Position numbers and translations under genes: made by a program
Assembly (NCBI GenBank): GCA_903813345.2
Contig: CAIIXF020000006.1
Coordinates: forward strand, 36,669,936 to 36,733,935
Length of the DNA: 64,000 bases
Source of the DNA: Owenia fusiformis
Taxonomy: Eukaryota > Annelida > Polychaeta > Sabellida > Oweniidae
Direction of reading: 5' to 3'
Shown: positions 1,434 through 47,900 of the stretch, piece by piece
Position numbering within the stretch: the stretch's first letter is position 1
How the letters are laid out: each line of letters begins with the position of its first letter
The notes under the pieces: generated by a model
What the model was told of the DNA's origin: nothing
The model's input: the letters and a program-made list of their open reading frames with translations, nothing else
Databases searched by the model: none

Positions 1434-4400
1434 CCGTACAAAATCACAAATATCTTTTGTAGTTTCTAGCTTGGAGACATTGCGAACTTTCTTAGGGAGG
1501 TGGCCGAGAATGAGATCTTCTGCGCTGAGATAGTTAAAGCCATACACATTGATGAGGTCATCTACGATACGTCCTTTCCGGGATCCGGGACCTCCTACAA
1601 TAACAAAGAAAATAGAAGCTAGAGTCTAAACAAGTAATAACACAATGATAAATATTGCACTAAGACATACTAGTTCATACACATTGATGACGTAATCTAT
1701 AATACGTCCTTCCCGGGACCGGGGACCTCCCATAATAAACAAAGAAAATAGAAGCTAGAGTCTAAACAAGTAGTAATTAGATAGTGACAAATATTGCACT
1801 AAGACATACTAGTTCATACACATTGATGACGTAATCTATAATACGTCCTTCCCGGGACCGGGGACCTCCCATGATAAACAAAGAAAATAGAAGCTAGAGT
1901 CTAAACAAGTAGTAATTAGATAGTGACAAATATTGCACTAAGACATACTAGTTCATACACATTGATGACGTAATCTATAATACGTCCTTCCCGGGACCGG
2001 GGACCTCCCATAATAAACAAAGAAAATAGAAGCTAGAGTCTAAACAAGTAGTAATTAGATAGTGACAAATATTGCACTAAGACATACTAGTTCATACACA
2101 TTGATGACGTAATCTATAATACGTCCTTCCCGGGACCGGGGACCTCCCATAATAAACAAAGAAAATAGAAGCTAGAGTCTAAACAAGTAGTAATTAGATA
2201 GTGACAAATATTGCACTAAGACATACTAGTTCATACACATTGATGACGTAATCTATAATACGTCCTTCCCGGGACCGGGGACCTCCCATAATAAACAAAG
2301 AAAATAGAAGCTAGAGTCTAAACAAGTAGTAATTAGATAGTGACAAATATTGCACTAAGACATACTAGTTCATACACATTGATGACGTAATCTATAATAC
2401 GTCCTTCCCGGGACCGGGGACCTCCCATAATAAACAAAGAAAATAGAAGCTAGAGTCTAAACAAGTAGTAATTAGATAGTGACAAATATTGCACTAAGAC
2501 ATACTAGTTCATACACATTGATGATGTTATCTATAATACGTCCTTCCCGGGACCGGGGACCTCCCATAATAAACAAAGAAAATAGAAGCTAGAGTCTAAA
2601 CAAGTAGTAATTAGATAGTGACAAATATTGCACTAAGACATACTAGTTCATACACATTGATGACGTAATCTATAATACGTCCTTTCCGAGACCCGGGACC
2701 TCCCATAATAAACAAAGAAAATAGAAGCTAGAGTCTAAACAAGTAGTAATTAGATAGTGACAAATATTGCACTAAGACATACTAGTTCATACACATTGAT
2801 GACGTAATCTATAATACGTCCTTCCCGGGACCGGGGACCTCCCATAATAAACAAAGAAAATAGAAGCTAGAGTCTAAACAAGTAGTAATTAGATAGTGAC
2901 AAATATTGCACTAAGACATACTAGTTCATACACATTGATGACGTAATCTATAATACGTCCTTTCCGAGACCCGGGACCTCCCATAATAAACAAAGAAAAT
3001 AGAAGCTAGAGTCTAAACAAGTAGTAATTAGATAGTGACAAATATTGCACTAAGACATACTAGTTCATACACATTGATGACGTAATCTATAATACGTCCT
3101 TCCCGGGACCGGGGACCTCCCATAATAAACAAAGAAAATAGAAGCTAGAGTCTAAACAAGTAGTAATTAGATAGTGACAAATATTGCACTAAGACATACT
3201 AGTTCATACACATTGATGACGTAATCTATAATACGTCCTTCCCGGGACCGGGGACCTCCCATAATAAACAAAGAAAATAGAAGCTAGAGTCTAAACAAGT
3301 AGTAATTAGATAGTGACAAATATTGCACTAAGACATACTAGTTCATACACATTGATGACGTAATCTATAATACGTCCTTCCCGGGACCGGGGACCTCCCA
3401 TAATAAACAAAGAAAATAGAAGCTAGAGTCTAAACAAGTAGTAATTAGATAGTGACAAATATTGCACTAAGACATACTAGTTCATACACATTGATGACGT
3501 AATCTATAATACGTCCTTCCCGGGACCGGGGACCTCCCATAATAAACAAAGAAAATAGAAGCTAGAGTCTAAACAAGTAGTAATTAGATAGTGACAAATA
3601 TTGCACTAAGACATACTAGTTCATACACATTGATGACGTAATCTATAATACGTCCTTCCCGGGACCGGGGACCTCCCATAATAAACAAAGAAAATAGAAG
3701 CTAGAGTCTAAACAAGTAGTAATTAGATAGTGACAAATATTGCACTAAGACATACTAGTTCATACACATTGATGATGTTATCTATAATACGTCCTTCCCG
3801 GGACCCGGGACCTCCCATAATAAACAAAGAAAATAGAAGCTAGAGTCTAAACAAGTAGTAATTAGATAGTGACAAATATTGCACTAAGACATACTAGTTC
3901 ATACACATTGATGACGTAATCTATAATACGTCCTTTCCGGGACCGGGGACCTCCCATAATAAACAAAGAAAATAGAAGCTAGAGTCTAAACAAGTAGTAA
4001 TTAGATAGTGACAAATATTGCACTAAGACATACTAGTTCATACACATTGATGACGTAATCTATAATACGTCCTTTCCGAGACCCGGGACCTCCCATAATA
4101 AACAAAGAAAATAGAAGCTAGAGTCTAAACAAGTAGTAATTAGATAGTGACAAATATTGCACTAAGACATACTAGTTCATACACATTGATGACGTAATCT
4201 ATAATACGTCCTTTCCGAGACCCGGGACCTCCCATAATAAACAAAGAAAATAGAAGCTAGAGTCTAAACAAGTAGTAATTAGATAGTGACAAATATTGCA
4301 CTAAGACATACTAGTTCATACACATTGATGACGTAATCTATAATACGTCCTTTCCGAGACCCGGGACCTCCCATAATAAACAAAGAAAATAGAAGCTAGA

Positions 4401-7400
4401 GTCTAAACAAGTAGTAATTAGATAGTGACAAATATTGCACTAAGACATACTAGTTCATACACATTGATGACGTAATCTATAATACGTCCTTCCCGGGACC
4501 GGGGACCTCCCATAATAAACAAAGAAAATAGAAGCTAGAGTCTAAACAAGTAGTAATTAGATAGTGACAAATATTGCACTAAGACATACTAGTTCATACA
4601 CATTGATGACGTAATCTATAATACGTCCTTTCCGAGACCCGGGACCTCCCATAATAAACAAAGAAAATAGAAGCTAGAGTCTAAACAAGTAGTAATTAGA
4701 TAGTGACAAATATTGCACTAAGACATACTAGTTCATACACATTGATGACGTAATCTATAATACGTCCTTCCCGGGACCGGGGACCTCCCATAATAAACAA
4801 AGAAAATAGAAGCTAGAGTCTAAACAAGTAGTAATTAGATAGTGACAAATATTGCACTAAGACATACTAGTTCATACACATTGATGACGTAATCTATAAT
4901 ACGTCCTTCCCGGGACCGGGGACCTCCCATAATAAACAAAGAAAATAGAAGCTAGAGTCTAAACAAGTAGTAATTAGATAGTGACAAATATTGCACTAAG
5001 ACATACTAGTTCATACACATTGATGACGTAATCTATAATACGTCCTTCCCGGGACCGGGGACCTCCCATAATAAACAAAGAAAATAGAAGCTAGAGTCTA
5101 AACAAGTAGTAATTAGATAGTGACAAATATTGCACTAAGACATACTAGTTCATACACATTGATGATGTTATCTATAATACGTCCTTTCCGAGACCCGGGA
5201 CCTCCCATAATAAACAAAGAAAATAGAAGCTAGAGTCTAAACAAGTAGTAATTAGATAGTGACAAATATTGCACTAAGACATACTAGTTCATACACATTG
5301 ATGACGTAATCTATAATACGTCCTTCCCGGGACCGGGGACCTCCCATAATAAACAAAGAAAATAGAAGCTAGAGTCTAAACAAGTAGTAATTAGATAGTG
5401 ACAAATATTGCACTAAGACATACTAGTTCATACACATTGATGACGTAATCTATAATACGTCCTTTCCGAGACCCGGGACCTCCCATAATAAACAAAGAAA
5501 ATAGAAGCTAGAGTCTAAACAAGTAGTAATTAGATAGTGACAAATATTGCACTAAGACATACTAGTTCATACACATTGATGACGTAAGCTATAATACGTC
5601 CTTTCCGAGACCCGGGACCTCCCATAATAAACAAAGAAAATAGAAGCTAGAGTCTAAACAAGTAGTAATTAGATAGTGACAAATATTGCACTAAGACATA
5701 CTAGTTCATACACATTGATGATGTTATCTATAATACGTCCTTTCCGAGACCCGGGACCTCCTGAAACAAAGAAAATAGAAGCTAGAGTCTAAACAAGTAG
5801 TAATTAGATAGTGACAAATATTGCACTAAGACATACTAGTTCATACACATTGATGATGTTATCTATAATACGTCCTTTCCGAGACCCGGGACCTCCCATA
5901 ATAAACAAAGAAAATAGAAGCTAGAGTCTAAACAAGTAGTAATTAGATAGTGACAAATATTGCACTAAGACATACTAGTTCATACACATTGATGACGTAA
6001 TCTATAATACGTCCTTTCCGAGACCCGGGACCTCCCATAATAAACAAAGAAAATAGAAGCTAGAGTCTAAACAAGTAGTAATTAGATAGTGACAAATATT
6101 GCACTAAGACATACTAGTTCATACACATTGATGATGTTATCTATAATACGTCCTTTCCGAGACCCGGGACCTCCTGAAACAAAGAAAATAGAAGCTAGAG
6201 TCTAAACAAGTAGTAATTAGATAGTGACAAATATTGCACTAAGACATACTAGTTCATACACATTGATGACGTAATCTATAATACGTCCTTCCCGGGACCG
6301 GGGACCTCCTGAAACAAAGAAAATAGAAGCTAGAGTCTAAACAAGTAGTAATTAGATAGTGACAAATATTGCACTAAGACATACTAGTTCATACACATTG
6401 ATGATGTTATCTATAATATGTCCTTTCCGAGACCCGGGACCTCCTGAAACAAACATAAAGAATATAGAAGTAACATATCAGTCATATACTTAAATAACAG
6501 GACACTCAGTGATAAATATTGCACCTTGAAGAGCAAAATGCCATGTAATTTATCCAGCATGCCCAAAACCTAATCCGATCTTGGCACTTGTCTGCTCTTG
6601 CATCCGAAAATTTTCTCGAAAGTTGCATGGATGACTGGTTTTTATGAAATTTGGATGTTAAGACCCATAGGGCACTTGAACACACACAATAACTCCAATA
6701 AAGCACTTTTTAAAAGTGCAATATAATTTAGTTTTCAAGTATTTGCTAACAGCAACGACCAATGACAACCATTTTTGGAATTGGTGGCCATCTTGATTTG
6801 AGAGACAAGTTGAATTTCTTTTTACTGAATTGACTTTTTCTAATGTCTCCAGGTGTCTTGCATCATCCCTTGGATACCACCCCAAATGTTATTAATAATT
6901 AGGTATGTAGACACAGAACATGTATTGATTAATAACTCTACCTTGTACTGCAAATGTTTATGGATCTTAGAACTGTGCCATACCAAGTAATTATCGATAG
7001 TGTAGGAGTATGAGATATGAGCTGGTATTTAAATGTCACATTTTCTTTCTAATGTTTCGAAATCCGGTCAACTCGTTGAGTCTACAGTTGAATGAACAGC
7101 CTCGAGAAATACCTGAACTTGAAGCAACCCCCTATTTATTAACATGAGTCAATTACTTTATTTCTCATGTTTGTGGAGTCTGTACTATAGACTGTTACAG
7201 AATTCATAACTGATGAACCTATCTTCATGTAAAAGTGAACCTCTAAAGGCTCACATGGACAAGTCTTTATATGATGGAGATAGTGTCGGTGTGTCACCTA
7301 TGAACTCTGGGTAATTTCCTTCTCTGCTCTGAGTATACAAATCATTGTCAGTTTTTGTACAAATGCCCCCATCATTGTCAGTTTTTGTACAAATGCCCCC

Positions 7401-10400
7401 ATCATTGTCAGTTTTTGTACAAATGCCCCCATCATTGTCAGTTTTTGTACAAATGCCCCCATCATTGTCAGTTTTTGTACAAATGCCCCCATCATTGTCA
7501 GTTTTTGTACAAATGCCCACATCATTGTCAGTTTTTGTACAAATGCCCCCAAAGACGTAGCGCCCAGTATGCCTGGTATGCCTGGTATGCAGAGGCGTAC
7601 CAGATGGTTGCAAATACACTCCAAATACCAAAATTTCAAACACTCCAAATAACTAAATTTCAAAAAATTTTGAGGGGAGAACCGGCAGTCTCCCCGAACG
7701 CTCGTTTTTCGCTTCATTCAACTCGTATTCTCGTGGTCACGTACTACTCATAAAATAGCGCTATACCCATGGCCCCTCTCTATCTTACCCTGAGAAAATG
7801 AAAATGGTAGGGGAGAAGGTAGAGAGGGGGTGGAGGGGGAAGGGGGGAGTGGAATGGGACAAGGGGAAGGGAGAAGCCAATAAACAGAGTGGCAGAAAGA
7901 GAGAATAGGTACAAGGTTTCAATTCAAGGTAACCTTAAATAGTACAATTTGGCAAATGACTTTAAAAAATTATAATTTTACCTTAAAGGAAAAACATAAT
8001 ATAACAGAAAAGTAGAGCTCACAGGATGAAATATCTACATAAGGTCAGAGCAGGTGAATTATATCATAATGGGTATATATGTAACTATAGATTCAATACC
8101 AGTGTGCTGCAAAGTAATAAATTATTGATGACATTTAGGACATTATTGTCTCTTGTTACTTTCAATAGAATATTATTTATTATAGCAATGGTACAAGAAA
8201 GATTGATTTAGGGAAATGTTTCTTATTCGAACATAGTGTTTTCTATTTGCTCAGTCTGCACAGGGTGAGAAACGTGATCACTTGGCCAGACTCTTATTGA
8301 CTCCCCGTAGCCAACTTTTTCCCTGGGGGGTTCACTTTTTAAAAATATTAGTGAAAAGTGCTCAGAATGATGAAAAAAACTTCATTATTTTGAAAGAATA
8401 TTTGTTACTCCCTCTATGGGACAGGGAACGGGAGCACTTTATTTTAAACTGCAATATACAAATAATCTGTATGGGTGTGGGTAAGCGGTTAGGGCCTTTA
8501 AATGTATCCAACTTTACGTAAACCTTTTAATAGCTCAGAAAAGTTTGGGATGCCACAAAACATACTTTAATGCTTTGTATGATTTGATACCGACACTTGA
8601 TAGACATCCATATATGTTAAGAACTTTATAGAAAATCAATTCAGCATGAACAAGTATAGCGAGGAACTTTCCTGTGAAGGACTAAGCTTCTATAGCAATA
8701 TTACAGGGTGGGCCAAAAAAACAATACCCAAATTTAAAGATGAATGATTCATATCTTAAACCTTGCCATGTCATATATATCATTTTAAAGATAAAGCATT
8801 TCCTAACAATATGACACCATCCGATTGAAAAACGTTTGTTTCCTTGTGAAGATAGATGCTAAAATTGATACTAGGCGTGTCATGAGTGACCAAAAATCAG
8901 AAAATGAAAATTCGGAAAATGTATACCCGTATTATTTTATTAAAAAGATATTATTAACAAGTTTTATTGGTGAATTTTGGACTAAACTTGTATAAATGTA
9001 CATCATTTGAACATGCCAAAGTTCAAATTTCCCTGGACATTTTCCACAATTTGAAGTCCATAGTGAATAATTTTTTGTTCGCTCATGACACCCCTAGTGT
9101 TATTTCTAGCCTCTAACTCCTCAATAAAGCAACAGTTTTTTAATCAGATGGTCTCATATTGTTAGGAAATGATTTATCTTTAAAATGACAAGTAATACAT
9201 GGTATGGTGTTTAACATATATCATATGATTTTTATCTTAAAACTTGTGCATGTAGTTCCATTGCACCGTATTTAATTTTCTCAAATTTCAAATTAAAGGT
9301 GGTGTCAAAAAACTAGGGGGGGGGTGGGCAAGAAACAGGAAACATGCTTTTGGGATTCCTTTGCTTTTATGAATTGAAAATCGTTCTTCTGAATTTTAGG
9401 GGTTTCCCCTTAGACAATGGCACTGAAGACAGAACAAAAAGGTAGCTTGTATTTACCAATGCAACTTTCAGCTGTCGGCTACCAGATTAACCTACTGTTT
9501 TGTAACCAACTCATTAACCCTTCAATGGTCTTTTGTTTTTTACACCCTCTAAAGGTTTTTGGGATCGAAAATAATCGATTATTTCTGATATAATTATTGC
9601 AAAGAATGAGCTCTGGGGTCCAAAAACCATTTAAGGGTTAAAGCATGAGTAGAATAGAAATAATCTTGATTTAGATCATTAAATATTCAAAATTCAGTGA
9701 GTGATGTCATATTTGAAACCTACATGTAAAAGTACATCTAGAAATCTGGTTTCCCAATTTGTTTATCAACTTTCTAGTTCGAATTGATTCCCTAGACCCC
9801 ATGTTACAAAATCACAAAAAGTGAAATATCTTTTCTTGTATTGGACATCTTCTTTAACTTGACATATTTTTATTTGCATAACTATTAGATACATAAAGGT
9901 TATGAAAATTGAACCACTAAAACAGATGAAATTTAAGTTAAAGGGAATTTTCTACTATTATATACCCGTCATGCTATCTGACCCGAACGAGCCAACTGGT
10001 GGTCAAACTTGTAACTACCTACTCGCATCTATGTAATTACCCAGTACTCACAGTACAGTTAGTTCACTGTCATAACATCCTCTGCTCTGAACAAATAACG
10101 TCACATCTATTTAGCCGCATGAGAACAGTGATAACCAAGATAATTGAAAGGATTACTGCAGAAGCAATTTGCCGACAAAAGACTTGTGTATTACAAGATA
10201 TAATCAAAGCTTAAGGCCAGGGTGCATGTTGGAATTTTTTGCAATTTTGAAAAGTAAATCACTGAATATTCTACTTATTCAAACATTCTGAAGAATTATC
10301 AACCCTCACTTAATAGTCTAGGTACACTAACGCATCTTTTGTGCAAGAATGAAAGATGTACATGATGTGTGATCATGGTCATGAAATGTCATCAAAGTAC

Positions 10401-14600: not shown

Positions 14601-17600
14601 TTAAATTCTGTTTGTAGAAAGTAGGAACTTATTCAGTTCCTTTATTATTTCCTTGTTAAGTTTTTGGTCAATGTTGTCGTTGAGGCCTGTGATTGTTTGT
14701 ATGTCGATGGTTGGGTTGAAATCTGCTCCCAATAGAATAGAGTCTATTGCTGCTATCATAATGTCCCTCTGTGCGTTGTACTTGCTACACTGAAACAAGA
14801 AATGGTGGACAGTTTCTGGTAAGTTACAGTGTATGCAGTTTGGGGATGATAGTTCAGGGTTAATCTTGCAGTAATGACCATTTAGACGAGTGTGCCCAGA
14901 TACTAATTGATTAAATTTGGTTTGACTGTATCTTTTACCCATATTTATCAATCTAGATTGCACTTTCACTTTTGGGATGAGATTTTGGATAAGGTTGACT
15001 TTGTTGGAATTATCATACCTATTTTGCCATTTTTCAATCACCTTAGTTTTGATTGCCTTATAGGCCATGGTTTTTGTTGTATTAGATACTGGGAGTGTTT
15101 TAGCTGAGTTGGCTGCTTTTTTAGCTATATTATCAGCCAGCTCGTTACCCTCTATTCCTAGGTGACTAGGTACCCATATTACCTCAATAGTTTTGTTCAA
15201 CAGGGAAAGGGTTCTGCATGCTTTCCTAATAACCATGGTTTCTTGTGTCATGTTTTTCAATTTTGTGTTTAGGAAAGCTGATGTAATAGCAGGTTGACAG
15301 TCTGAGAGGATTGTAACTTTGTCTGAGCACCGGGATTTGACTATGTGTTCCAATGCCATCTTCAGGGCCACAAGCTCGCCGTTGTAGTTGTTTCCCTGGT
15401 TGGCCACTGGCTCTTCCAGGCACACTGGGTTGCTTTTAAGGCCGTTCGTGTATACAATGGCTGCTGCTCCAGTTGGCCCTGGGTTGCCAAGAGCCGATCC
15501 ATCAGTGAATATTATGGTGTCAGAGTTGTTAATGTTGTCCAGTAGGTTGTTGATGTAGTCAGTTTGTTCAGCTTTGGATCTGCTGAAATGTTCTGAATGT
15601 ACAAGAGCATCTGCAGGCAGAAAGGACTCTGCATCTGATTTGTAGTAGCTGTGTTTTTCGTAGCTATCTGTTTTGGTGGGGCAGGAGTGCAGTCTTAGTC
15701 TTGCTGCCAGCATGGTAAAGCAAGTTGGTTTACTTTCATGCTTAACAGTTTCCGCCCAGTGCTGGTATTCTTGGGTGATGGGGTCAGAATTCTTATGATT
15801 TAAGATCCTGACAGCCTCTTGAGCTTGCCTTGCTCTAAGATGGATGTCTAAGGGAAGCACTCCTGCTAGAACCTCCATTGATTCAGTGCTAACTGTTGAC
15901 AAGCAGCCAGTTGTTTTGAGGAGTGCAGCCCTTTGGACTGTAGAGTAAGCTTTAGAGGCTTTATCTGTTACTGTGGCCATAGCACTGATTCCTGTCTCTA
16001 GGTGTGGAATCACCAAGGTTTTGTAGAGTATGGTGAATACCTCCTGACTGCATCCGGAGTTGTCGCTGGTGAAGTTGGAAATGCCAGCCAGAGCTCCAAA
16101 TGCAGCCCTCTTTTTCTGTTCAATATGTTGTTCAAAGGTGAGCTGGTCATCTACCGTAACTCCAAGGATCTTTTTAGAATGGACTATTGAGAGTTGTTTT
16201 CCCTGAAAGTGTATGTTAATGTTGGGTTTAGCTTTTCCGGGGGGGGAGAACACAAGAACCTCAGATTTTTCCGGTGAAATCTCCATGTTCCACTGTTTGC
16301 ACCATTTCCCGGCGAGTTCTTCAAGGTCATTGTTGATGCTCTGTTCTACTGCAGCAATGTCAACTCCACTTGACCAAATGGTGTTGTCATCAGCAAAACC
16401 AGCGGTACGAGATACAACTTTTGACATTGAATCTGCCGTGTAAATGTTGCAGAGGGTCGGGGAAAGCACGGATCCCTGTGGTATTCCTACAGATGATGGG
16501 AGGAGATCGGTGGTATGGTCATTGGCAGTAATGGAAAACTTCCTGTTAAACAAGTACTGGGAAATGTAAACAAGAAGTCTTCCCCCTATGCCATTTCGAG
16601 CCATTTTGTAGACAAGTCCCTCTCGCCATATCCGTTCAAAACAACTTTCGTAGTCTAATATAGCAGCTATGACAGTCTCGCCCTTGTTCAGAGATTCCTG
16701 TACAGACTGTATGAATCGTATCACAGTCTGCGAGCATCCCCGATGTTCTCGGAATGCATCTTGAAATCTGCAGTAAGTGTTAGTCGTTTCATTCCGCCAA
16801 GATAGTCGTGGGCTTACAATTCGTTGTAGTACTTTTCCAATAATGGATTCGAGTGTGATGGGTCGGTAAGCCCTCTCAGTATTATAATCCTTCTTATTGG
16901 GCTTGCCTAGCATCGTTTTTGGGTCTATCTGGAATTCAGACGGGAGGACGCCCTCCTCCCAACATTTCTGAGCTAGTTTCCAGATAGCCTGATGTAGGTA
17001 ATTCCCCCCTTTTTTAATAATGATTCCCATGATTTTTTCCCTGGGGCTGGGGGCTGTGTTAGTTGGGGTCCTATTTATAGCATCTATGGTTTCCCTCAAA
17101 GTAATATCCTTGTTTTCCTCAGAACATGTTTTGTGATAGTTGGGTTCCAGGATTTTTTCTTTCTCAGTTTTGATTATGTTGTTAGCTGTCTGGTTGACAT
17201 GGGAGTACCATACTCCACACTTCTGAACGGGCAGCTGTTGTTTGCCATATTGTTGAATCATTGCTTGAGCAATGTCAACATCAGTGTAGAGTATGTCACT
17301 TCCATCCTTTGGTTTTATTGGTTGAACTATCTTTTTGGCTTTCTTGTTGTTTGTTCGGTTTACTGCTTTCCAAATGCCCTCTGGTCTGCCCACACAGAGC
17401 TCACTGAACAATTGGTCCCAGTATTGGGATTCTTGTTGTTTAGCATTTATGGTAAATTGGTCAGCCAGCTCCGTGTATGCAGCCCAGTTGGCCGGATCAC
17501 TTCTTTTATTATACCTACGTTTCGCTTTTCTTAAGTTTCTTACCTGATTGGTTAGATCATGTGTCCACCACCCTTTGCTCCTGCTACACACCGTTTTCTT

Positions 17601-18500
17601 AGGGATGTTCTCAGCAACGACCTTGTGTATCAGGGAGCATAGTGTAGTGTAGCATTCCTCCACGTTAGAATTGGGGAGTGTTACCTGTAACCAATCAGAG
17701 CATTTTAAATCACATTCAGTTGCGAAACTATTCCAGTTCGTATTTTTGAGGTCTAGGTACTCTCTTTTCATCTCTGCCTCAGGCCTGCCGATCCTGAAGG
17801 AGATCAATCTGTGATCAGATCTGAGATAGACCTCCTCCCGAACCCGCCACTCCTGAATTCTGGATGAAAGAGTACCAGAGCCAAAAGTCAGGTCAATGAT
17901 GGTTTCTTTGCGGGTGAATTGACTGTTGTTGAATATGTGCAGATTTTGGGTTAATATGAAGTTTGAAACTTGTTCACCAAGTTTGTTTGTGGAATTATCA
18001 TTCCATAGAGGATGCCTTGCATTAAAATCGCCCGTGAATAAAACAGGTAGACCATCATTGATGACTTTGTTTGCAATTGAGACAAAATTCTCCCATGCGG
18101 TGATGTTCTCAGGGGGGATGTATACCGAGCATACAAGGGTCGCAATGTCCTTTGTGTATACATTTGCCCATGCCGCTTCGACATCATCCCTCATGAGGTC
18201 ATCCCGCTTAACAATTTTAGTATTGGGAGAAGCTATAATGGCTGCCCCCCCACCTTCCCTATTTTGTCTGATAGATGAGATCCAGGACCAGTCTTTGAGC
18301 CCAGCTTTCACAATGTTTTCTGATTTAGGGTGCCATATCTCTGTTAGGCAAAATATTGACGCATTAGGAGCTAAATGTTTAATGAATTTGGCAGAGGTGT
18401 TGATTGATTGAACATTGGCTTGAAAGAAATTCATTTTGACGTTAGATATGAAGATGGTTGCGGCAGCCAGTATAGTATGAATCATGTGACTAATGTGCAT
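14601..18500 (-). CDS. LINE ORF2: endonuclease, reverse transcriptase, RNase H polyprotein
   Basis: 1299 codons if translation starts at the ATG overlapping the ORF1 stop (ATGCACATTAG); the frame is open 41 codons further upstream. The N-terminal APE-type endonuclease has LTEIW, GDFNARHPLW (about residue 156), IDLTF and SDHRL (about 229). The reverse transcriptase shows RPITLESIIGK, LDYESCFERIW, GIPQGSVLSP and the catalytic FADD (about 703). RNase H has TDGSALGNPGP (about 998), a GELVAL helix, LSDCQ and LADNIAKKA. A C-terminal CxxC-H-C finger (SPNCIHCNLPETVHHFLFQC) lies near 1222. All catalytic residues I can check are present. The protein would nick the target and prime cDNA synthesis on its own RNA. 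Confidence 0.97.
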   Translation of the reverse strand: MHISHMIHTILAAATIFISNVKMNFFQANVQSINTSAKFIKHLAPNASIFCLTEIWHPKSENIVKAGLKDWSWISSIRQNREGGGAAIIASPNTKIVKRDDLMRDDVEAAWANVYTKDIATLVCSVYIPPENITAWENFVSIANKVINDGLPVLFTGDFNARHPLWNDNSTNKLGEQVSNFILTQNLHIFNNSQFTRKETIIDLTFGSGTLSSRIQEWRVREEVYLRSDHRLISFRIGRPEAEMKREYLDLKNTNWNSFATECDLKCSDWLQVTLPNSNVEECYTTLCSLIHKVVAENIPKKTVCSRSKGWWTHDLTNQVRNLRKAKRRYNKRSDPANWAAYTELADQFTINAKQQESQYWDQLFSELCVGRPEGIWKAVNRTNNKKAKKIVQPIKPKDGSDILYTDVDIAQAMIQQYGKQQLPVQKCGVWYSHVNQTANNIIKTEKEKILEPNYHKTCSEENKDITLRETIDAINRTPTNTAPSPREKIMGIIIKKGGNYLHQAIWKLAQKCWEEGVLPSEFQIDPKTMLGKPNKKDYNTERAYRPITLESIIGKVLQRIVSPRLSWRNETTNTYCRFQDAFREHRGCSQTVIRFIQSVQESLNKGETVIAAILDYESCFERIWREGLVYKMARNGIGGRLLVYISQYLFNRKFSITANDHTTDLLPSSVGIPQGSVLSPTLCNIYTADSMSKVVSRTAGFADDNTIWSSGVDIAAVEQSINNDLEELAGKWCKQWNMEISPEKSEVLVFSPPGKAKPNINIHFQGKQLSIVHSKKILGVTVDDQLTFEQHIEQKKRAAFGALAGISNFTSDNSGCSQEVFTILYKTLVIPHLETGISAMATVTDKASKAYSTVQRAALLKTTGCLSTVSTESMEVLAGVLPLDIHLRARQAQEAVRILNHKNSDPITQEYQHWAETVKHESKPTCFTMLAARLRLHSCPTKTDSYEKHSYYKSDAESFLPADALVHSEHFSRSKAEQTDYINNLLDNINNSDTIIFTDGSALGNPGPTGAAAIVYTNGLKSNPVCLEEPVANQGNNYNGELVALKMALEHIVKSRCSDKVTILSDCQPAITSAFLNTKLKNMTQETMVIRKACRTLSLLNKTIEVIWVPSHLGIEGNELADNIAKKAANSAKTLPVSNTTKTMAYKAIKTKVIEKWQNRYDNSNKVNLIQNLIPKVKVQSRLINMGKRYSQTKFNQLVSGHTRLNGHYCKINPELSSPNCIHCNLPETVHHFLFQCSKYNAQRDIMIAAIDSILLGADFNPTIDIQTITGLNDNIDQKLNKEIIKELNKFLLSTNRI

Positions 18501-19548: not shown

Positions 19549-19560
19549 TCCAGACTAGCA

Positions 19561-29124: not shown

Positions 29125-29741
29125 ATAACTTGAATTCCTAAATTCTTGCAGACAGCCATTGCAAAATTTCAATCCAATTAAATATAAATCCTTCTAGCTC
29201 TCCATAAATAACTTGAATTCCTAAATTCTTGCAGACAGCCATTGCAAAATTTCAATCCAATTAAATATAAATCCTTCTAGCTCTCCATTAATAACTTGAA
29301 TTCCTAAATTCTCGCAGACAGTCATTGCAAAATTTCAATAAAATTAAATATAAATTCTTCTAGCTCTCCATTAATAACTTGAATTCCTAAATTCTCACAG
29401 ACAGCCATTGCAAAATTTCTATCCAATTAAATATAAATCCTTCTAGCTCTCCATTATAACTCGAGTCCTAAATTCTCACAGACAGTCATTGCAAAATTTC
29501 AATCCAATTAAATATAAATCCTTCTAACTCTCCATTAATAACTTGAATTCCTAAATTCTCACAGACAGCCATTGCAAAATTTCTATCCAATTAAATATAA
29601 ATCCTTCTAACTCTCCATTAATAACTTGAATTCCTAAATTCTCACAGACAGCCATTGCAAAATTTCAATCCAATTAAATTTCAATCCTTCTAGCTCTCCA
29701 TAAATAACTTGAATTCCTAAATTCTCGCAGACAGCAACATT
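29125..29741 (-). repeat. 83-bp tandem repeat, about 7.5 copies, derived from the DNAAF1 stop region
   Basis: Units begin ataacttgaattcctaaatt and recur at 29125, 29208, 29291, 29374 and so on to 29706. On the minus strand each includes gagctagaaggat and attggattgaaat, matching the last codons of DNAAF1 (ELEGLD then TGA) plus the first 3' UTR bases. The array therefore expanded from the stop-codon region and now forms the 3' UTR. Some units carry a 13-base insertion in the former coding part; one near 29455 is shortened. Confidence 0.93.
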
Positions 29742-32700
29742 TCAATCCAATCCTTCTAGTTCATCATCGATGGGTGGCCTGTCTGCAGTAGAACCTGCAT
29801 TAGCTGCTAAGTCCCAGATCTTTTCCTGTAAAGTTTTCTCTACATCTTTCACAGTCACATTATTATGATCTTTATCATCAGATGTTGCTTTTTGTAAATT
29901 TTGTAACAACTGTTCTGATTGGTTGTTTCCTGGAGCACCCGTGGTATTTGATTGGCTGAGTCTTTGTGAACCTGTTTGTGATTGGTTGTTAATCGAAATG
30001 TCTTCGAAGTCCTCCATTACTTCTATTATAGGTTTATATGTGGCGGATGTCTGTGCTGTTTGTTGTATATCTTCGACGTTCACATCTTCAAGGTCTGGCA
30101 GATCCTGGAAATTTAAATTTCTTATAATGAATTTCAAGAGATTATATGAGTGAGGGTGCATTAAAAAGCCATCATTTAAACTTCAATTATATTTTAAAAT
30201 GTTACATAGACACCGCATTTTCAAAACGCAAGTTTTGTGTCGAAAGAATCCTTTTCATTCAATTGAGTAGAAAATTAGGTGTTCATAGATGTAAAAACTA
30301 TGCATTTTGGAACTGATTTAAATGTATGATAAAACTTGTTTTGACTTGAATCCTGTGGATTGCTTTAAAGTACAAAGTATCCCAGAGTATTTCTTCTTTA
30401 CTGAATGGAAACCAAAGAAATGGGCTAAAATATCTATGTTATCATTGGTAAATATATTTTCAGTGAACTAAGAATCAATTCAATTGTGACTTCTTTAGAG
30501 GCATGAGTTGCCATTTGGAGCAATGAAGCTTTGAGGGCAGTTAACCCCATTGTACTCCATCCTGGTATTAACTTACTGAGGGGTGTGATTGTGTAGCATC
30601 TGATGCAGTTATCTCTTCTATTTCCTCATCTGGTATCTCAGTAATAAGAGTTTGACCAGTTGGTTCTAAGGGCTCCTTTACACGATCTGAATCTAACAAA
30701 ACATGAAAATTGAACAGACGCTGAACAACGAACACCATCCACTTGTGGTGGTGACATAAAAAACATTATTACATGTAGTCATAAAACATGTGATAATTCA
30801 CATTATTTATTGCCAACAATAAAACCCAAACAGTCATTATAAATACAAAGCTGTGCTCCAGGGGGGGGGGGGGGGTTTGAGCAAACTCCCCCTGGTCAAA
30901 AATGCTTTCAAAATCATGCAGTTTTCACCATTCTGAGCACTTTTAAATTCAAGTGATTTTGGCCATTCTTGGGCCAAAGTTGTTAAAAGTGAGCCACCCT
31001 GGAATTTTTCAAACGTGAACCCTAAAATTCTCTTTAAGATAATGTAATACATGAGGAGGGACAGTACTCACCTGAAACTATCTGGCTGAGGAAATCATTA
31101 CTGCTGCTGCCTGGAGACTTTTTCTGCTTGGAGAATATGCTGTCATCCTCCTGTTGACTCCTTCCTGTAATAACTGGCATCTCTTCTAAAGTCTAAAACA
31201 CCAACAGTATGATATCAGTTTAAAGAGGGCAGAGTGGACTCTATTTGCTCAAAAGAAACATCAATATTATTGTTATTGTTTAAGGTAGGCAATTTATGGA
31301 ACAATTTATGGCTGGTTCTCTTTCAGTCTTTGCTCTTTTTCCATGAGCCCTTAGCACATATTTTTAATTTCAATTAGAAACATATATGATAAAATGAATT
31401 CAAATTTTCAACCAAAAAATTTTGACTCAGCTTATCAAGAATTTCATTTGATATCACATGATAAGATTCCATCCAATCAGAAACATCATCATTTGATGTC
31501 ACATGATATGATTTGTCCAATCAGAAGCATCATTTACTGTCACATGATAGATTTTGTCCAATCAGAAACATCATTTGATGCCACATGATATGATTTGTCA
31601 ATCAGAAGCATCATCCTCACCTTCTCAGTTTGCTGTTGATCCTCTTGCATCTTTCTCTCTCCACTGGGGTCATCAACTGTTCCATAAAGCCAATCAACCT
31701 TCTCCTTGTCAACAACAACTGGTTCATCTGGCCTGCCCTCCTTCTCATTTTGTTCCTTTATAGCTTTCTCAAGTCTATCTGCTTCTGCACGCTGGCGAAT
31801 CTCCAACAAAGCTGAAAATTAACACAGATTAGAAAAGATAGGCGTTAACATGCAAAATGTCACCACCTACCATTTATTACAGATGCCGAATGCTGATAAC
31901 AAAAATGTTGGAGACTATAACAAAATGTCACCACTTCTGGAGCTGATATGATAACGGCTAACTTTTCGAGAAATTTTATCACATTGCTGCTATAGGAAGA
32001 GGCTAACGAGGCATTTTCGGGAAAAATAACACTAATGGTGCTTCTTAAAAAGCAGGATAATGTAAAATGTAATGTTTATACATTATATTGGAAGCTGTTT
32101 ACATTTGAAAACAAAATGTCACTACCTACCATTTGTTAAAGATGCTGAACTCTAAAAGCCAATTACCAAATGCCATCAAAAAAAGTTGGAGACCATAACA
32201 AATTTGTACCGAGAAAATTATGGGGTAAAGATAGTAGTTTTGAAGGAAATTCCACATATAGATATGTAACCACAGAGAAATATTTGATGCAGAGACACAA
32301 ATATGGGATGTAAAATTTGATGTTTTCTTACCATCAACACTCTCTTTTATCTTGCGCCTTTCTCTGTTTACCCATTCATCTCTTTCTTTTTTCTCAGCCT
32401 CTACACCTCCTTTTGCCCAAGCCTCAGCACATGCACGGTCTTTGGGGAAAACAGGGCGATCATCTAGGTATGTCAGCTCCTTCTGTAACCAGCAAATGCA
32501 GCTTTATAGACAACTTGGTTCAACACAAGGAATTATGTATAAGGGGTATACTCACTCTAAATGATTTGGGCAGGCATATGCAGCACAGGAAATTTTGGCT
32601 TAGGGCATATACCATGGAACCTAGCCAATGTGAGAGGAATAATACGTGGAAAATTGTCGAAGAGAGAGCCTTTTTTAGTCAAAAAGCAGTTTTTCAATCA

Positions 32701-35700: not shown

Positions 35701-37585
35701 TTGTCAAACATATATATAAATAAATATAATTACAACATTAGATCTGATACTTGTTCCAAACTACCCTGCGTGCAGAGTCTAGTTAAACTACACTCTGCCT
35801 ACCATATTGCAGTTTAGTAGCCCCGCCCCCACGACGGGTACCGGTGACAGTTTGGGAAATAAATCACTTCTGACCTACGTGCTGACCTTTCTTCCCCCAA
35901 TCAGCAAGCTTGAAGAAACATAGCCAAATGCGTTCTAATTAAATATGCGCATGTAATTGCTCAATTCCGGGCTCAACGATGACGTCAGAAGGAATGATCA
36001 TATATAGAACGTCGGTCAAATTTGGCCGACGAACATTGATTGGCGCGGTGAGTTCACAGGTTTATTTTAGTTTGAAAGAGTGAAGACGAAGCTCTCTTTT
36101 AAGAAGTGAAATCAAACGAATGCAAAGGGTAGTTCCAAACACTCATAAACATACAATATTTTGAAAAATGATTATGAATATGTGGACTAAAGGAATGTGT
36201 GACTAATCAAAATAAATTGACACTCAAAGCTCAAAATGTCACAAAATTAAATCAATTTCTTTCCAAAATTCTTCTTCAAACTTTAAACTATTCTGAACAG
36301 TATGTTACAATTACAATATGTATATCTATTGACATTCTCAGTCCAACGCTTGATTCAAAGCAAAATATATACTTGGGTACGAGTTGTCTTGGGTACCAGT
36401 TGTCTTGGGTACGACTTGTCTTGGGTACGAGTTGACCAGTTACCACACTAACCAGTGGTCTCCACAGGATTTTTTCTCAAGTGGGTGCAAATTTATCATT
36501 GACATTTTTCAGATCAAAATTAACAAAAATATGCCTATTTTTCTCATTTTCAAGTGGGTGCAAATGGATTTTCAGGTGGGTGCAAGCAGGGTTTCAAAAT
36601 CTCAGGTGGGTGCTGCACCCACTTGCTTTAATGCTTGGGAGATTTACTCACTTCGAGAGCCATGTTAGATTTTGAAACTTATGGCTCTCAAACGGGGAAG
36701 TGAACAGCTGATTAATAGTGACCTTTGAAATCGAATTAAGTCGATCCGCGGCTTACTTTTGGTCTCTAACTGTGTCTTACATCAGTATCATCAATCCGTG
36801 TAAGTATTTGAGCGCTGAAGTACTTCCTTTTCGATCAAGACTTGTAATTCTTAGTCGAGTGAATGTTTTTACTGCCATATTCCAATATGGCGTTTTCTGC
36901 TCGGATATTTTCGTAAATCTCCCGAGGTTGTCCGAACCTAACTAATTCTCAAAATTCATTTCGTTCGTTGCATATCTCGCTCCTAGCAAACCCCCATATT
37001 GGAAATATGTCTAAAAAAATTTCACTCGATGAACAATTTACAAGTCTTGATCGAAAAAGAAGTATTTCAGCACTCTAATACTTACACGGATTGATGATAC
37101 TGATGTAAGACACAGTTAGAGACCAAAAGTAAGCCGCAGATCGACTTTATTCGATTTCAAAGGTCACAATCATTCACAGGCTTTCGCAGGAAGTAATGGG
37201 AGATCACTGAATTGTAACCAAGGTGATGACAATCTACAAAGTGCCAATTGTTCTACAGACACAAGAATCTGAAGGAATTTTAAGGTAATAGTGGTACATC
37301 ATACATGTAATTTGAATCCATTTGTTCAAGTAACTTACCAGTTTCGTCTATAGTTTTGTTGTCTGCTGGTTGTTTTGATGAAGTAGTAACATCCTCAATA
37401 AGAATGGGGACTGATTTTTCAAAACGGACATCTTCAATAAGTTCTGATTTGTTTTTTCCTATAGTGACATCTTCAACATGGTTTGGTTCGGGATTCTCAT
37501 TGGTGTCATCTTCTATGAGAATTTTTGTTGAGTTTACTTTCTCTGGAGCATGTGATGTCTCTTCGATGACTTCTATGAGTGGCAT
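29742..37585 (-). CDS. DNAAF1: Dynein axonemal assembly factor 1 (LRRC50), complete
   Basis: Eleven coding exons, 1860 bases, 619 codons plus stop: 37585-37339, 35348-35234, 34675-34584, 34010-33789, 33430-33264, 32860-32786, 32482-32332, 31811-31621, 31192-31072, 30692-30577, 30104-29742. All phases match. Residues 1-120 are acidic and low-complexity. From about 122 the family signature [16 protein letters not shown] leads into SDS22-type leucine-rich repeats (140-290; [29 protein letters not shown]), then the cap [16 protein letters not shown] and [21 protein letters not shown] charged coiled-coil-prone region and an acidic tail follow. DNAAF1 is a cytoplasmic factor for preassembly of outer and inner dynein arms of motile cilia. 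The protein is shorter than the ~725-residue human form, mainly in the tail. The start codon lies just after a TTTCAG acceptor, so a 5' UTR exon is upstream. Confidence 0.96.
30855..31040. repeat. Poly-G-linked interspersed repeat
   Basis: A run of G (30859-30874) followed by ctccccctggtcaaaaatgc, accattctgagcactttt and agtgattttggccattcttg. The same string order occurs at 40245-40365, with pieces at 8320-8380 and 52060-52360. A dispersed non-coding family in a DNAAF1 intron. Confidence 0.75.
31838..31950 (+). repeat. Interspersed ~110-bp repeat (TTGGAGACTATAACA family), copy 1
   Basis: Shares the order acatgcaaaatgtcacc, ccatttgttacagatgccga, gttggagactataacaaaat and gtcaccacttctgg with copies at 32105-32210, 38845-39000, 42175-42265 and 43165-43295, plus a trace near 30735. 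All copies are in the same orientation. The ends of the better copies can pair (gtcaccactactgg against a ggtggtgacat end), so it may be a small hairpin element. Confidence 0.75.
34032..34447. mobile_element. pogo/Tigger-like MITE (TACAGTA...TACTGTA)
   Basis: Begins tacagtatagttaaacctgg and contains gaacacctctttaatccgaa. It ends cttacacaggttctactgta. The same organisation (TACAGTAAAA, gaacacctc, ggttttactgta) occurs at 58078-58537. Family assignment is from the termini only. Confidence 0.65.
34756..34961. mobile_element. CAGGGGCGGATC-ended MITE
   Basis: caggggcggatctgggaacc at the left is mirrored by cagatccgccagtg at the right. The interior is runs of aattttgaggcctatttt and ggccttaaaaggcccag. 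Fragments of the same family fill 51190-52330. Non-coding. Confidence 0.8.
35436..36440. mobile_element. Foldback-like element whose inverted ends are tandem 18-mers
   Basis: The left end (about 35436-35492) carries iterations of acaactcgtacccaaga and the right end (about 36373-36437) the reverse complement, tcttgggtacgagttgtc and variants (aactgg/ccagtt). Terminal inverted repeats built from short tandem units recall FB-type elements. The interior contains a GC-richer promoter-like block. Lies in DNAAF1 intron 1. Element boundaries are approximate. Confidence 0.6.
35815..36062 (+). promoter_or_regulatory. Promoter-like block inside DNAAF1 intron 1 (CRE plus TATA)
   Basis: Plus-strand order: cccgcccccacgacgggtac, atgcgcat, tgacgtca (CRE consensus, about 35980), then atatatag (TATA-like, about 36000) and a GC-richer stretch ending gcgcggtgagttcacagg. 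This is unusually GC-rich for the window. It may be an internal promoter of the surrounding foldback element or an enhancer. No ORF follows that I recognise. Confidence 0.4.
36718..37167. mobile_element. Foldback MITE, 450 bp, GTGACCTTTGAAATCGAAT ends
   Basis: The left arm gtgacctttgaaatcgaatt, cttacttttggtctctaact, catcagtatcatcaatccgt is mirrored by the right arm acggattgatgatactgatg, agttagagaccaaaagtaag, ttcgatttcaaaggtcac. Arms are about 170 bases with few mismatches, so it is relatively young. In DNAAF1 intron 1. Confidence 0.9.
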
Positions 37586-41997: not shown

Positions 41998-44900
41998 TTA
42001 TGAACAAACCTGTGGGGGCACATAGTCTGGGTCATTGTCTTCATCTATATCATCATTGTCATCTTCCTACAAACAAACAAATACACAAATATTACTTTTA
42101 ATACATTGCTGTTATTGTATCATTGGAATGTTTCTCATTTTCTCATTGGATAAGAACATATCACATGATTAACAAGGCATTTACACGCAAAATGACACCA
42201 CCTGCCATTTGTTACATATGCCAAACTCAGAACACCGTTAGAGACCATAATAATATGTCACAACAACTGAGAAAGTAGTTCCAGATCTTACCTCTTCCTC
42301 TTCACCTTCCTCCTCGTATTCATCCTCATCTAATGCTTCCCCAGTGAAATATAGTACAGCACGGGGAACAATGCGCTCTCTTATAAAGTGTCCAATCTCA
42401 AAGTCTGCGGCTAATAGAGCTTCAGTATCTTCATCGACCTCATCTTCACCCTCTGGCGCTGAAACATCGATTTATTTTATTCGATACTGGGAATAGAGAT
42501 TTCCAGTTTTTGTAATATATTTTTCAATTTTTCAAAGCAGCTAAAACTGCAGAGGATTTTTTTTGAAGATTGTGAATTGTTTTCATCTTTTTTAATTAAT
42601 TAATTTCGAATACTTTCGGGATCTCCTCTAATTTTTTTGACTTGCAGATCTCGACTACAAGGATTTTCTGCATATTCTTGTTTGTTTAGAAAAACATATT
42701 AAAATTGCCAAATTTGAATTCTTGGTATAATTTCTTTTGGATTATTTTGAAATATTACATCAAAAACAAATTGAAGTTTGAGGATGGCATAGTACATTAT
42801 ACAATTAATTTCATGAAATAAATTTCATATTTTAAATGCTTTCTAGAAATCTAAATTGATTTAATACCTTCTGGTGGAGCGAAAAAGTTGAAAAATGAGT
42901 CGTTCTGTACAGTTTTGGTAACAGTGCGTTTTGTTCCTCGTCCTTTGTGTTTCTGAGTTTTCTTTATTAGCTTCACTGTGACATTCTTTCCTTTCTTCCA
43001 ATCTATGCTACATCTGAATGCACAAAGAAATAACAATATAATGATGGACATTTATATTGAAGTTTCATTACAAATTAACATGTAGACATTGACTGTAAAT
43101 TATACATGTACTGCATCTGATTATACTGAACAAACTAAAATTTTAAGATTTTCAACTCATATGAAAACAAGGCAAAATGTCATTACTTGCGGTTTGTTTC
43201 AGATGCCAACCACTGATCGTCAACTGTCAAACACCATCCACAAAAAGTTGGAGACTATAAAATATGTCACCATTTTCGATGGTGACATAAAAAATGATTT
43301 CACTTACCCTTTACATTTGATTATCTCTGGTCCCTCAAATGAGAATGGGTCTGCCTCATCAGGTTCACTGCGCATGATATACTGCTTTGTTAACACTGTG
43401 TTTGTGAAGTATTCATTACTATCAAAGTGGAAATCTAGAGTGAAGCCCTACAAATATATAGCAATATATAACAATGATTATGATATACTGCTTTGTTAAC
43501 ACTGTGTTTGTGAAGTATTCATTACTATCAAAGTGGAAATCTAGAGTGAAGCCCTACAAATATATAGCAATATATAACAATGATTATGATATACTGCTTT
43601 GTTAACACTGTGTTTGTGAAGTATTCATTGCTATCAAAGTGGAAATCTAGAGTGAAGCCCTACAAATATATAGCAATATATAACAATGATTATGATATAC
43701 TGCTTTGTTAACACTGTGTTTGTGAAGTATTCATTGCTATCAAAGTGGAAATCTAGAGTGAAGCCCTACAAATATATAGCAATATATAACAATGATTATG
43801 ATATACTGCTTTGTTAACACTGTGTTTGTGAAGTATTCATTGCTATCAAAGTGGAAATCTAGAGTGAAGCCCTACAAATATATAGCAATATATAACAATG
43901 ATTATGATATACTGCTTTGTTAACACTGTGTTTGTGAAGTATTCATTGCTATCAAAGTGGAAATCTAGTGTGAAGCCCTACAAATATATAGCAATATATA
44001 ACAATGATTATGATATACTGCTTTGTTAACACTGCGTTTGTGAAGTATTCATTGCTATCAAAGTGGAAATCTAGTGTGAAGCCCTACAAATATATAGCAA
44101 TATATAACAATGATTATGATATACTGCTTTGTTAACACTGCATTTGTGAAGTATTCATTGCTATCAAAGTGGAAATCTAGTGTGAAGCCCTACAAATATA
44201 TAGCAATATGTAACGATGATTATGATATACTGCTTTGTTAACACTGCGTTTGTGAAGTATTCATTGCTATCAAAGTGGAAATCTAGTGTGAAGCCCTACA
44301 AATATATAGCAATATATAACAATGCTTATGATATACTGCTTTGTTAACACTGCGTTTGTGAAGTATTCATTGCTATCAAAGTGGAAATCTAGTGTGAAGC
44401 CCTACAAATATATAGCAATATATAACAATGATTATGATATACTGCTTTGTTAACACTGTGTTTGTGAACTATTCATTGCTATCAAAGTGGAAATCTAGTG
44501 TGAAGCCCTACAAATATATAGCAATACATAACAATGATTATGATATACTGCTTTGTTAACACTGTGAAGTATTCATTGCTATCAAAGTGGAAATCTAGTG
44601 TGAAGCCCTACAAATATATAGCAACATATAACAATGATTATGATATACTGCTTTGTTAACACTGTGTTTGTGAAGTATTCATTGCTATCAAAGTGGAAAT
44701 CTAGTGTGAAGCCCTACAAATATATAGCAATATATAACAATGATTATGATATACTGCTTTGTTAACACTGTGTTTGTGAAGTATTCATTGCTATCAAAGT
44801 GGAAATCTAGTGTGAAGCCCTACAAATATATAGCAATATGTAACGATGATTATGATATACTGCTTTGTTAACACTGTGTTTGTGAAGTATTCATTGCTAT

Positions 44901-47900
44901 CAAAGTGGAAATCTAGTGTATTGTAATGTAATGTATTTATAATATGAGGCGGATTCATTTTTGGAATTATAGATCAGTGAGAGAGTGGACTTGAGTTTTC
45001 ATGTCAAAGTTGAATGGGGAAATGAGATTTAGTGAGCTAATTTGGAATATTTCAACAGTGGAAGTGAACACCCAAAAGCATTCCATCACCATAGCAACCT
45101 ATTCTTCCAATTTGGAGTCTGATTCTACACAGTATATACCATAGGGTCTGATTCTACATTGAACATACCATTGGGTCTGATTCAGTGAACTTGACTTTGA
45201 TATCTTGTAAGTGGTTAAGGACGGGTTCATCATGCTCTTGTACCATCTCTGCCAGCATGTCAACATTCTTGAAAACTGTAAGCCAGAAGCTTGGAATTCC
45301 AGTTGGGTTCTCTTCTTCACCATCCTCTTTCTTGTCCTCGATGGCTGCTTTATCTTTAAGGTCATCCTAGATAACAATGATTCAACAGAATAATTCACTG
45401 AATTTATCTGTATTTATAAGCATAACTTTTAATCAGGATAATGATTTCATGTCTTAAACCTATTTGTTCTGAATTATGTGTTGCACCCTTTATATTTGGG
45501 ATAATGGGCATCGTCTAAGTTACAAGGTATAAATAATGAATAGAGCTAATAGCATCTTTTGCATAATGTTTGCATATTTAAGTCCAATTGGATTCCCAAA
45601 TCTTTCTTGGGCCAATCCTGACAACCAGCTCTTCTGTATCTTAATTTTAGGGAACATATACATCACTTGTATGTCTCCCATAAAATTCCTCAATGAAACT
45701 GTGATGCAAATTCCTAAACACAAGAGCATTTTCTCAAAATGGCAACAAAATGAATTAGGGGGAGAATCAAGTGTCACCAGAATGAACAGACTTCTTAAAG
45801 TAAGTTCTGAATACCACAGAGATTAAGTGGTTTAGTGGCCTCAAGTTCTTATAGCATCCAGCATGCTTTGAATTTCACAAAGAAAAGCATCCAAGAGAAC
45901 AAGAACAGTGGATATTACACATTCATATGCTATGCTACCACTCAAGTTCCCAGGATGAAACTGAGATAGGCTGTTAGCTTTAATGTACTGTACGGCACGC
46001 CTGGTAATCATTTGCCATGAAAAACGGATGATCTTGGATTTTAAATCAGTAGATGACAGGTACCTACTAATGCATATCTATGTAAGTACCTTCTCTCCAC
46101 TTACAGCTAGTTTGTCTGCCTCTGCTTTTTCATCTTCTTCTTCATCATCACTTGGCCACTCTGCGTCACTATCTGTTGGCTCTGTACCACCAGTCACAAT
46201 GTCTTTTCTCTAAAATAAAAAAAATAAATGGATGAATGAAACAGGTCAGAGCATCACTTGGCCACTCTGCGTCACTATCTGTTGGCTCTGTACCACCAGT
46301 CACGATATCTCTTCTCTAAAATAACAAAATAAATGAATGAATGAAACAGGTCAGAGGCAGGGCACTCTGTGTTTGCAAGACAGGTGAGTGAGAAATATCA
46401 CAGCAACATAAGCATTGCACAATACGGTGGCTCTAGTCTTGTGTCAATCCTCTAGTCCTTAGCCCCTTTAATTCCCCCAGATGCAGTTTCAAGGGGAGGT
46501 GGTGAAACAAGGGTTTGATACAAGACTGTTATATTCACCAAAATGCCTTTAGTTTTGAAGATGAAGCCAAATCTTAGGTACGGATTTGCAAAAATCAATA
46601 AATTCAGACTCTGCAGTCTGTTTTGGCTGAATTCATTAGAGCTTCATGACATCATTTTACCTTCTGAAGCTGGGAAGAACCTTACTGAGGCACTGAAAAC
46701 TTATTCAGGTCAACCCTGTTTTGGTCTATGCAACCAAATGAGTAAGAGATCAATATTCTAGAAGACATGCACTTAGATGTGTCAACTATTTCGACTACAT
46801 AACTGCTATTGTTTTGAATGGATATATATTTCTTACCCGTTCCATGAATGGAGCATATTGTGTGGCGTATTTGCACTCTAAAGCATGGACTTCTTCATAA
46901 AATTTAGCTTCAATTTTTGTCATCTCAAATTGTAATTTCTTGAGGGCCTTGATGCGACGTTTCACAACCTTTGGTAAGCTGGAAGTAATAAACAAAATAA
47001 ACAAACAAATCAAATGATCACTTTGGCACACAGTTAATCCATTTCATCCCCAGTGACACCCAACTAAGAATTTGACAAAAATCATGCCAGTCAAACCAAA
47101 GCCTTTTATTTGTAAACAAGCCATGTGATAAATAGGGCACGTCGAACAGCGAAATGACTATGTAATTAACCCAACATTCCAAATCAGACCTTGGCACTTG
47201 TCTGCTTTTGCATCTGTAAAATTTTAAGTTGGACAGAAAAGCTGTTTTCCCAGAAATTTGATGACCAGATTCATGTGACACGCGTCTGCCCGCTTCGAGA
47301 CCCAGATGCAAAGTTTGCACAGGTACACACACCCAGCAGCAACTATAGCATTTTTTCAGTCTGATAAAGACACCAAAAAACAAGGAAATACTTTGAAAAA
47401 TACCACTTCACAAGTATTGCCATTTAAGACCCAACACTCACCTCTGTATGTAACCAGATGCAGTTCCCACCATGCCACCGAGACGATCCTGGAGTGCCGC
47501 CAGAACTTCAGGGTTCTGCATCAGTTGACTAGCAATAACTGCAGACTCAAGGGTTTTGCTGTCTACAAGTACAAAAACAGAACATATAGTGCATTACTTC
47601 TGGGACAGCCCTCATATTTATAGAGCTTGAACTAAAAAGAACAAGGCTTTCAAGATTCAATCATAAGTTTCATTTTGGTAATTTAACAAGATGTCTATTA
47701 AGTTACCATATTGAAAATCTGTTTGCACCTGCAAAAGGGTGAAATATTAAACCATTTTGGCCAAATCAGTTTAACCTGAACTTTGCAAAACTCTGTTGAA
47801 ATAAAATCAATACGTAATTCAACAAAGAGGATTGGCTCCCGGGGATGCAACTCAATATATTTTCCAGAGAATGTCAAAATTTCTTTATTTCTAAAATTAT

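Follow-up and report, generated by a model that had tools for sequence, protein, structure and literature searches.

A stretch of 64,000 nucleotides from the annelid Owenia fusiformis (positions 36,669,936 to 36,733,935 of contig CAIIXF020000006.1; the whole stretch is referred to here as the window) carries tandem arrays that copy the edge of an exon together with the DNA beside it. These very probably belong to the type of structure described in amphioxus as 'mirages', and their excess at exon edges, which was measured in other genes of the same genome, is very probably real. The explanation that we consider probable is that the arrays are minisatellite-like tandem duplications, with a unit spanning an exon edge, that have been made frequent by a raised birth rate. 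The original mirage paper is reportedly that of Canestro and others in 2002.

For an independent test, gene regions were chosen, before their DNA was read, from Pfam match lists that covered all 498 Mb of the genome. Set A comprised CCT chaperonins and myosin heads (20 regions, with preference for compact genes, holding 91 of 152 matches in the lists), set B adaptins and Sec1 (13 regions, 59 of 79 matches) and set C the proteasome (16 regions, 34 of 36 matches). Two matches were omitted from set C; one of them repeats a matched exon at a position about 100 bp further upstream and had been spotted before the sequence was retrieved. The three sets cover 193 kb with 179 annotated exons, and the exon ends were adjusted by means of a simple splice-site score. 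Ahead of the counts for sets A and B together and for all three sets, five intron-bridging matches of more than 450 bp were removed. Arrays with a unit shorter than 25 bp or a score below 22 were excluded, and an array was said to straddle an edge when it held at least 12 bp on either side of it. As the main null model, one interval of each array's unit length was placed at random.

The sequence-only reading of the window had asked for an enrichment check of this kind. At an identity of at least 75%, 19 of the 45 arrays in the three sets straddled an annotated edge where 4.77 were expected (P = 7.2e-9), and at an identity of at least 90% this was the case for 15 of 26 arrays (3.38 expected). 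With all expectations doubled P was 3.6e-4. Random duplication tolerated by selection, which the same reading had put forward as its null, predicts about 5 straddling arrays among 45 and does not agree with the 19 observed. At the 75% threshold the excess was present in set A (9/23 against 1.93, P = 3e-5) as well as in set B (6/12 against 1.01, P = 1e-4). When sets A and B were shifted circularly, with all arrays of one locus moving together, the straddling arrays numbered 2.9 on average and 9 at most, and none of 2000 shifts reached the observed 15. Nearness to an edge adds little: 20 of the 35 arrays in sets A and B lie within 50 bp of one (9.8 expected, P = 2.4e-4), and 15 of these 20 already straddle. 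Three arrays counted as misses in sets A and B were read by eye as edge arrays (L016 3256-3421, L018 2090-3889 and L027 3382-6158); their exons had been missed by the profile or dropped from the counts. The array in L018 consists of a donor-edge array with 82 bp units and an acceptor-edge array with a lag of about 182 bp, which had been merged by the detector. Five random stretches of 10 kb contained nine arrays, four of them at least 90% identical (units of 32, 32, 37 and 134 bp); these stretches have no exon annotation and hence stand outside the tests.

Three points weigh against so strong an excess. Set C alone yielded 4/10 straddling arrays against 1.83 expected at the 75% threshold (P = 0.08); at 90% identity P was 0.013. 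The expectations assume uniform placement inside loci that had been trimmed around exons. Finally, when the whole span of each array was placed at random, set A showed no excess (9/23 against 8.45, P = 0.48; at 90% identity 7/11 against 4.77, P = 0.12). This last result would suit the view that duplications originate uniformly and that selection merely spares those crossing an edge, the copies of which are plausibly harmless. The array-span null was rejected as the main test: as the edge recurs in every unit, the chance at birth depends on the length of the unit alone. The unit and not the span is the right random object because later expansion cannot raise the chance of catching an edge. Moreover, if tolerance were all, duplications confined to introns, which should be at least as well tolerated, ought to outnumber those at edges; placement by unit predicts 4.77 straddling arrays among the 45, and 19 were counted. 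Uniform origin followed by tolerance is therefore considered very unlikely.

The anatomy of 20 edge arrays was measured, 11 of which copy an acceptor and 9 a donor. The units, of about 30-260 bp, consist of part of an exon and the adjoining non-coding DNA and are present in 2 to 36 copies; the exonic part amounts to 9-97 bp, or 20-84% of the unit. Such arrays occur in unrelated genes and on several large contigs. As the sequence-only reading had stated, one intact exon remains, with acceptor copies upstream or donor copies downstream. Since it is the copy attached to the body of the exon that stays intact, additional copies of a 5' edge are bound to be upstream, and those of a 3' edge to be downstream; this is the geometry of tandem duplication, without need of selection.

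That the copies act as decoy acceptors or donors was upheld only in part. In 13 of 19 rows every matched copy retains AG or GT (90/90 copies, counting the intact ones); for some of the remaining rows the search word was off by one base or matched a single copy. AG is kept in 14/14 matched copies of the 14.6-copy array in the NAP1-like gene of the window, and a donor array in L027 has 34 matched copies. However, the array in the adenylate-kinase-like (AK-like) gene of the window has GG in place of AG in 31 of 36 matched copies, so most of these are not decoy acceptors, and the third copy of the V-ATPase donor array reads GA. A regulatory role, in which arrays would be retained since decoy splice sites tune splicing, could draw on the complete rows; yet young copies retain these letters regardless, most AK-like copies lack AG, the copy number varies from 2 to 36 between genes, and the carrier genes are unrelated in function. 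In addition, splicing in amphioxus is described as normal (PMC3087553, PMC3902484). A regulatory role is thus regarded as highly improbable.

All eight arrays named in the window were found again with Tandem Repeats Finder (TRF), gapped self-BLAST and reading of the sequence. The statement that they include an exon boundary applies to six of them as a splice site and to one as a stop codon, whereas the eighth misses the stop by about 7 bp. The AK-like gene (minus strand) has an acceptor array of 139 bp x 35.4 at 1541-6444 (TRF, sequence) on the 5' edge of an intact exon at about 1434-1594, which was seen in the sequence and is backed by a weak ADK match. In the V-ATPase C gene (plus strand) a donor array of 182 bp x about 2.8 lies at 25517-26042 (25517-26029 in the narrower delimitation; TRF, self-BLAST; exon 25477-25574), an acceptor array of 128 bp x 2.1 on the next exon at 26346-26615 (TRF; intact copy 26523-26655), and a stop-codon array of 75 bp x 2.1, 100% identical and with no splice site in its unit, at 27338-27492 (TRF, self-BLAST). 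The NAP1-like gene (minus strand) carries an acceptor array of 106 bp x 14.6 at 43374-44919 (TRF, sequence; intact copy 43308-43447), a donor array of 29 bp x 2.3 at 45117-45183 (TRF, sequence; exon 45169-45366) and an acceptor duplication of 106 bp x 2 at 46146-46356 (exon 46105-46209), which was found by self-BLAST and is absent from the TRF list. The array that misses the stop is that of the DNAAF1-like gene (minus strand), 83 bp x 7.4 at 29122-29735 (TRF, self-BLAST): its aligned edge lies about 7 bp past the stop codon, and the coding end is reached only by degenerate similarity seen by eye.

Two arrays with small units, beyond the eight named, lie beside edges: one of 41 bp x 4.1 at 31444-31614 (minus strand, TRF), which starts 7 bp inside a DNAAF1-like intron after the donor, and one of 23 bp x 3.9 at 22312-22399 (plus strand, TRF), which ends about 15 bp upstream of a weakly modelled V-ATPase C acceptor. 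Seven arrays in the window have a unit of at least 60 bp and an identity of at least 94%, and every one is among the named eight; three with a unit of at least 60 bp lie away from edges (48635-48893, 53333-53660 and 57682-58041), at 70-86% identity by self-BLAST. A 30 bp x 7 array with 98% matches (7341-7551, TRF) lies apart from any modelled exon. On hand-built gene models (28 exons in gene spans of 26.8 kb) there are 7 straddling arrays among 12, where 1.53 were expected (P = 8e-5); these models were drawn after the arrays had been seen, and the independent test is that on sets A, B and C. Just outside the window, in L046 (C6:36664936-36669935), the next AK-like exon has an acceptor array of 158 bp at 2231-3275 that is 93% alike, so that two neighbouring exons of this gene each have their own acceptor array. 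A further array with a lag of about 60 bp is found at 4690-5000 of L046.

The host genes were identified with different degrees of certainty. V-ATPase C was matched by PF03223 (E 1.3e-119) and the NAP1-like gene by the NAP family PF00956 (E 4.9e-95). The DNAAF1-like gene matched leucine-rich repeats, the name DNAAF1 being the label of the sequence-only reading. For the AK-like gene, two exons joined gave an ADK match at E 4e-4, below the ADK cut-off, and the best match in PDB was adenylate kinase 5 (E 6.9e-5), so the assignment is weakly supported.

It could be supposed that the assembly itself produced the arrays by collapsing or stuttering haplotypes at exon ends, and an amphioxus draft was indeed misassembled at such an array (PMC3087553). 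Nevertheless, the copies in most of the Owenia arrays differ among themselves, the structures are found on several large contigs, the amphioxus cases were found independently, and an assembler is blind to exons. This explanation is scarcely credible.

Birth and survival of arrays are expected to leave different ages. With profile exons only, the median identity was 94.6% for edge arrays and 82.5% for other arrays (P = 0.078); with the three by-eye cases added it was 94.8 and 82.1% (P = 0.009), a value that hinges on those three exons and to that extent counts against a firm conclusion. Arrays at least 90% alike made up 14/18 at edges against 6/22 elsewhere. Edge arrays look younger than the others, if anything, which favours a raised birth rate over both tolerance and longer survival. 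After the three by-eye cases had been moved, six arrays of at least 90% identity remained off the edges in sets A and B. Their distances to an annotated edge were 4 bp (L022), 19 bp (L025 466-2491), 35 bp (L024), 79 bp (L027 1712, unit 32 bp), 215 bp (L001 4121, unit 33 bp) and 325 bp (L012); in the last case an acceptor overlooked by the profile lies, as judged by eye, at a distance of about 4 bp. Set C added an array 41 bp away (L047 2635, unit 34 bp) and one about 1 kb away (L055 1492, unit 135 bp). Young arrays distant from exons exist and are few in number.

If deletions near exons were purged, arrays there would persist and accumulate. Such a survival bias would also favour intron-only arrays near edges, and several are present (L022, L024 and L025 466-2491); moreover, gene conversion could hide the age of an array. 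It predicts, however, that edge arrays are older, and by either annotation they are if anything younger. Survival bias is accordingly thought unlikely. The age data lean to a bias at birth, short of proof, as gene conversion could make old arrays homogeneous and hence seemingly young. A raised birth rate is probably the cause of the excess. The mechanistic bias mentioned in the sequence-only reading is the best remaining explanation after the observation of 19/45 against about 5, with no pointer in the data to the R-loops, transcription or replication that had been named with it.

We propose that short tandem duplications would arise at a higher rate in or at exons, and that those lying wholly within coding sequence would be lost to selection. 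Duplications that cross an edge could survive because a complete exon is still present where the array ends. If the edge is an acceptor, the resulting order would be acceptor, partial exon, intron end, acceptor, exon; the spliceosome might then pair the nearest acceptor and donor across the short exon and ignore the copies, by which the old transcript would be restored, and the same could apply to donors. Unequal exchange may later lengthen or shorten the array. A hot spot covering the exon would leave survivors at its edges, and also where coding sequence ends, as at the two stop codons in the window. Initiation is possibly exon-wide in this manner rather than strictly edge-specific, an assignment we make tentatively. 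Stop-codon arrays count against the proposal as a whole in that they did not recur: none of six 3' pieces of CCT genes, in not every one of which the stop was located, had an array of at least 85% identity, and one piece had two weak arrays (79 and 71% identity). Stop-codon arrays are consequently no demonstrated general pattern, because these six pieces lack a young array.

A variant of this proposal, not exclusive of it, is that breaks or template switches occur at the splice sites themselves, for instance through RNA-DNA hybrids. Donors and acceptors are hit about equally, and the listings of tandem arrays for the test sets contain no wholly exonic array, both of which would suit such a process; selection, however, would be expected to remove arrays from the interior of housekeeping exons. 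The two window arrays at stop codons have no splice site, and with an exonic part of 9-97 bp the break points lie off the sites. The exon share of the units did not differ from uniform (Kolmogorov-Smirnov P = 0.25), which does not mark the edge as a break point and is unfavourable to a bias tied to edges; the edge showed no significant tendency to lie at the centre of the unit. As regards micro-homology, the excess match at the junctions of the few clean two-copy arrays was 14, 9 and 2 bp, the other arrays being confounded by additional copies or indels. A process specific to edges is somewhat doubtful, although nearly as likely as a hot spot that covers the exon.

The anatomy closely matches that of the mirages of amphioxus. 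In the amphioxus papers (PMC3087553, PMC3902484) mirages are described from the Adh3, globin, PGBD5 and troponin C genes as minisatellite-like repeats across exon-intron boundaries, at 5' or 3' edges, with units of tens to about 160 bp, AG or GT intact in many copies and one authentic exon; splicing is reported as undisturbed, somatic instability is reported, and a route to new introns is suggested. Variation of copy number between haplotypes also belongs to the characters of mirages. Likewise, in Owenia the repeat unit holds an exon-intron boundary (six window arrays and the straddling arrays of the independent sets), either edge is copied, and one authentic exon is accompanied by copies most of which have AG or GT, the AK-like array being the exception. 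Unlike the amphioxus cases, which were reported gene by gene in cephalochordates, those described here are from an annelid and were tested statistically over 179 exons; they reach 36 copies, and two arrays are at stop codons. Searches of the open-access literature brought up no such arrays outside cephalochordates, and none in annelids. The new points are the measured excess and the distant phylum, the kind of structure being already known.

Tandem exon duplication can yield mutually exclusive exons, in which whole exons with both splice sites have diverged and are used. These resemble the Owenia arrays as tandem exon-bearing copies inside a gene and differ from them in that the window arrays copy one edge only. 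At C9:37986009-37994334, next to a muscle myosin gene, there is a run of about a dozen matches to one stretch of 50-60 residues of the myosin head, a pattern like that of mutually exclusive exons. The gain of introns by tandem genomic duplication (reported in PMC4974935; also the Rogers model, as cited in PMC3087553) likewise doubles splice-like sites within a gene; there a new intron is made, whereas in the Owenia arrays the old intron and exon stay and the extra copies would be read as intron.

A high density of mirages in an annelid makes their cause testable by comparison, and it puts in question the assumption of an even spread of short tandem duplications over genes. Were arrays born preferentially in exons, new introns and alternative exons would draw on raw material that is not random. 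If splicing is normal as in amphioxus, the spliceosome would ignore up to dozens of intact decoys beside the real site. Possibly, exon DNA is a hot spot of tandem duplication here and the same process acts in amphioxus, so that it would be ancient among animals or have arisen at least twice; it would then keep supplying spare splice sites, extra exons and new introns. For gene predictors and short-read genotyping the arrays are a warning at such loci.

Some further observations concern the genome and the window at large. A search of the genome with the haemerythrin domain PF01814 gave no match, which neither supports nor excludes an annelid. Matches to the C-terminal domain of the erythrocruorin linker (PF16915, best E 5e-7), presumably an annelid domain, are clustered at C6:27028280-27049838. 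The muscle myosin stretch scored best in PDB against 1dfk and its relatives (510 bits), followed by chains at about 493 and then 445 bits, which we take to be scallop, vertebrate cardiac and insect myosins, respectively. Twelve contigs, C1 to C12, of 31.9-62.2 Mb make up about 477 of the 498 Mb, whereas amphioxus has 19-20 chromosomes; with the myosin and linker matches, this makes the genome look unlike that of amphioxus. On the minus strand of the window, open reading frames of 1371 and 354 aa (14604-18716 and 18493-19554) resemble, by eye, a non-LTR (long terminal repeat) retrotransposon. A frame of 403 aa at 55654-56862 may be a relative. For an element at 36640-37111 the genome-wide list holds 88 matches, many of which share about 95-97% identity across some 357 bp; an inverted partner often follows, and the element resembles a young short inverted-repeat element.

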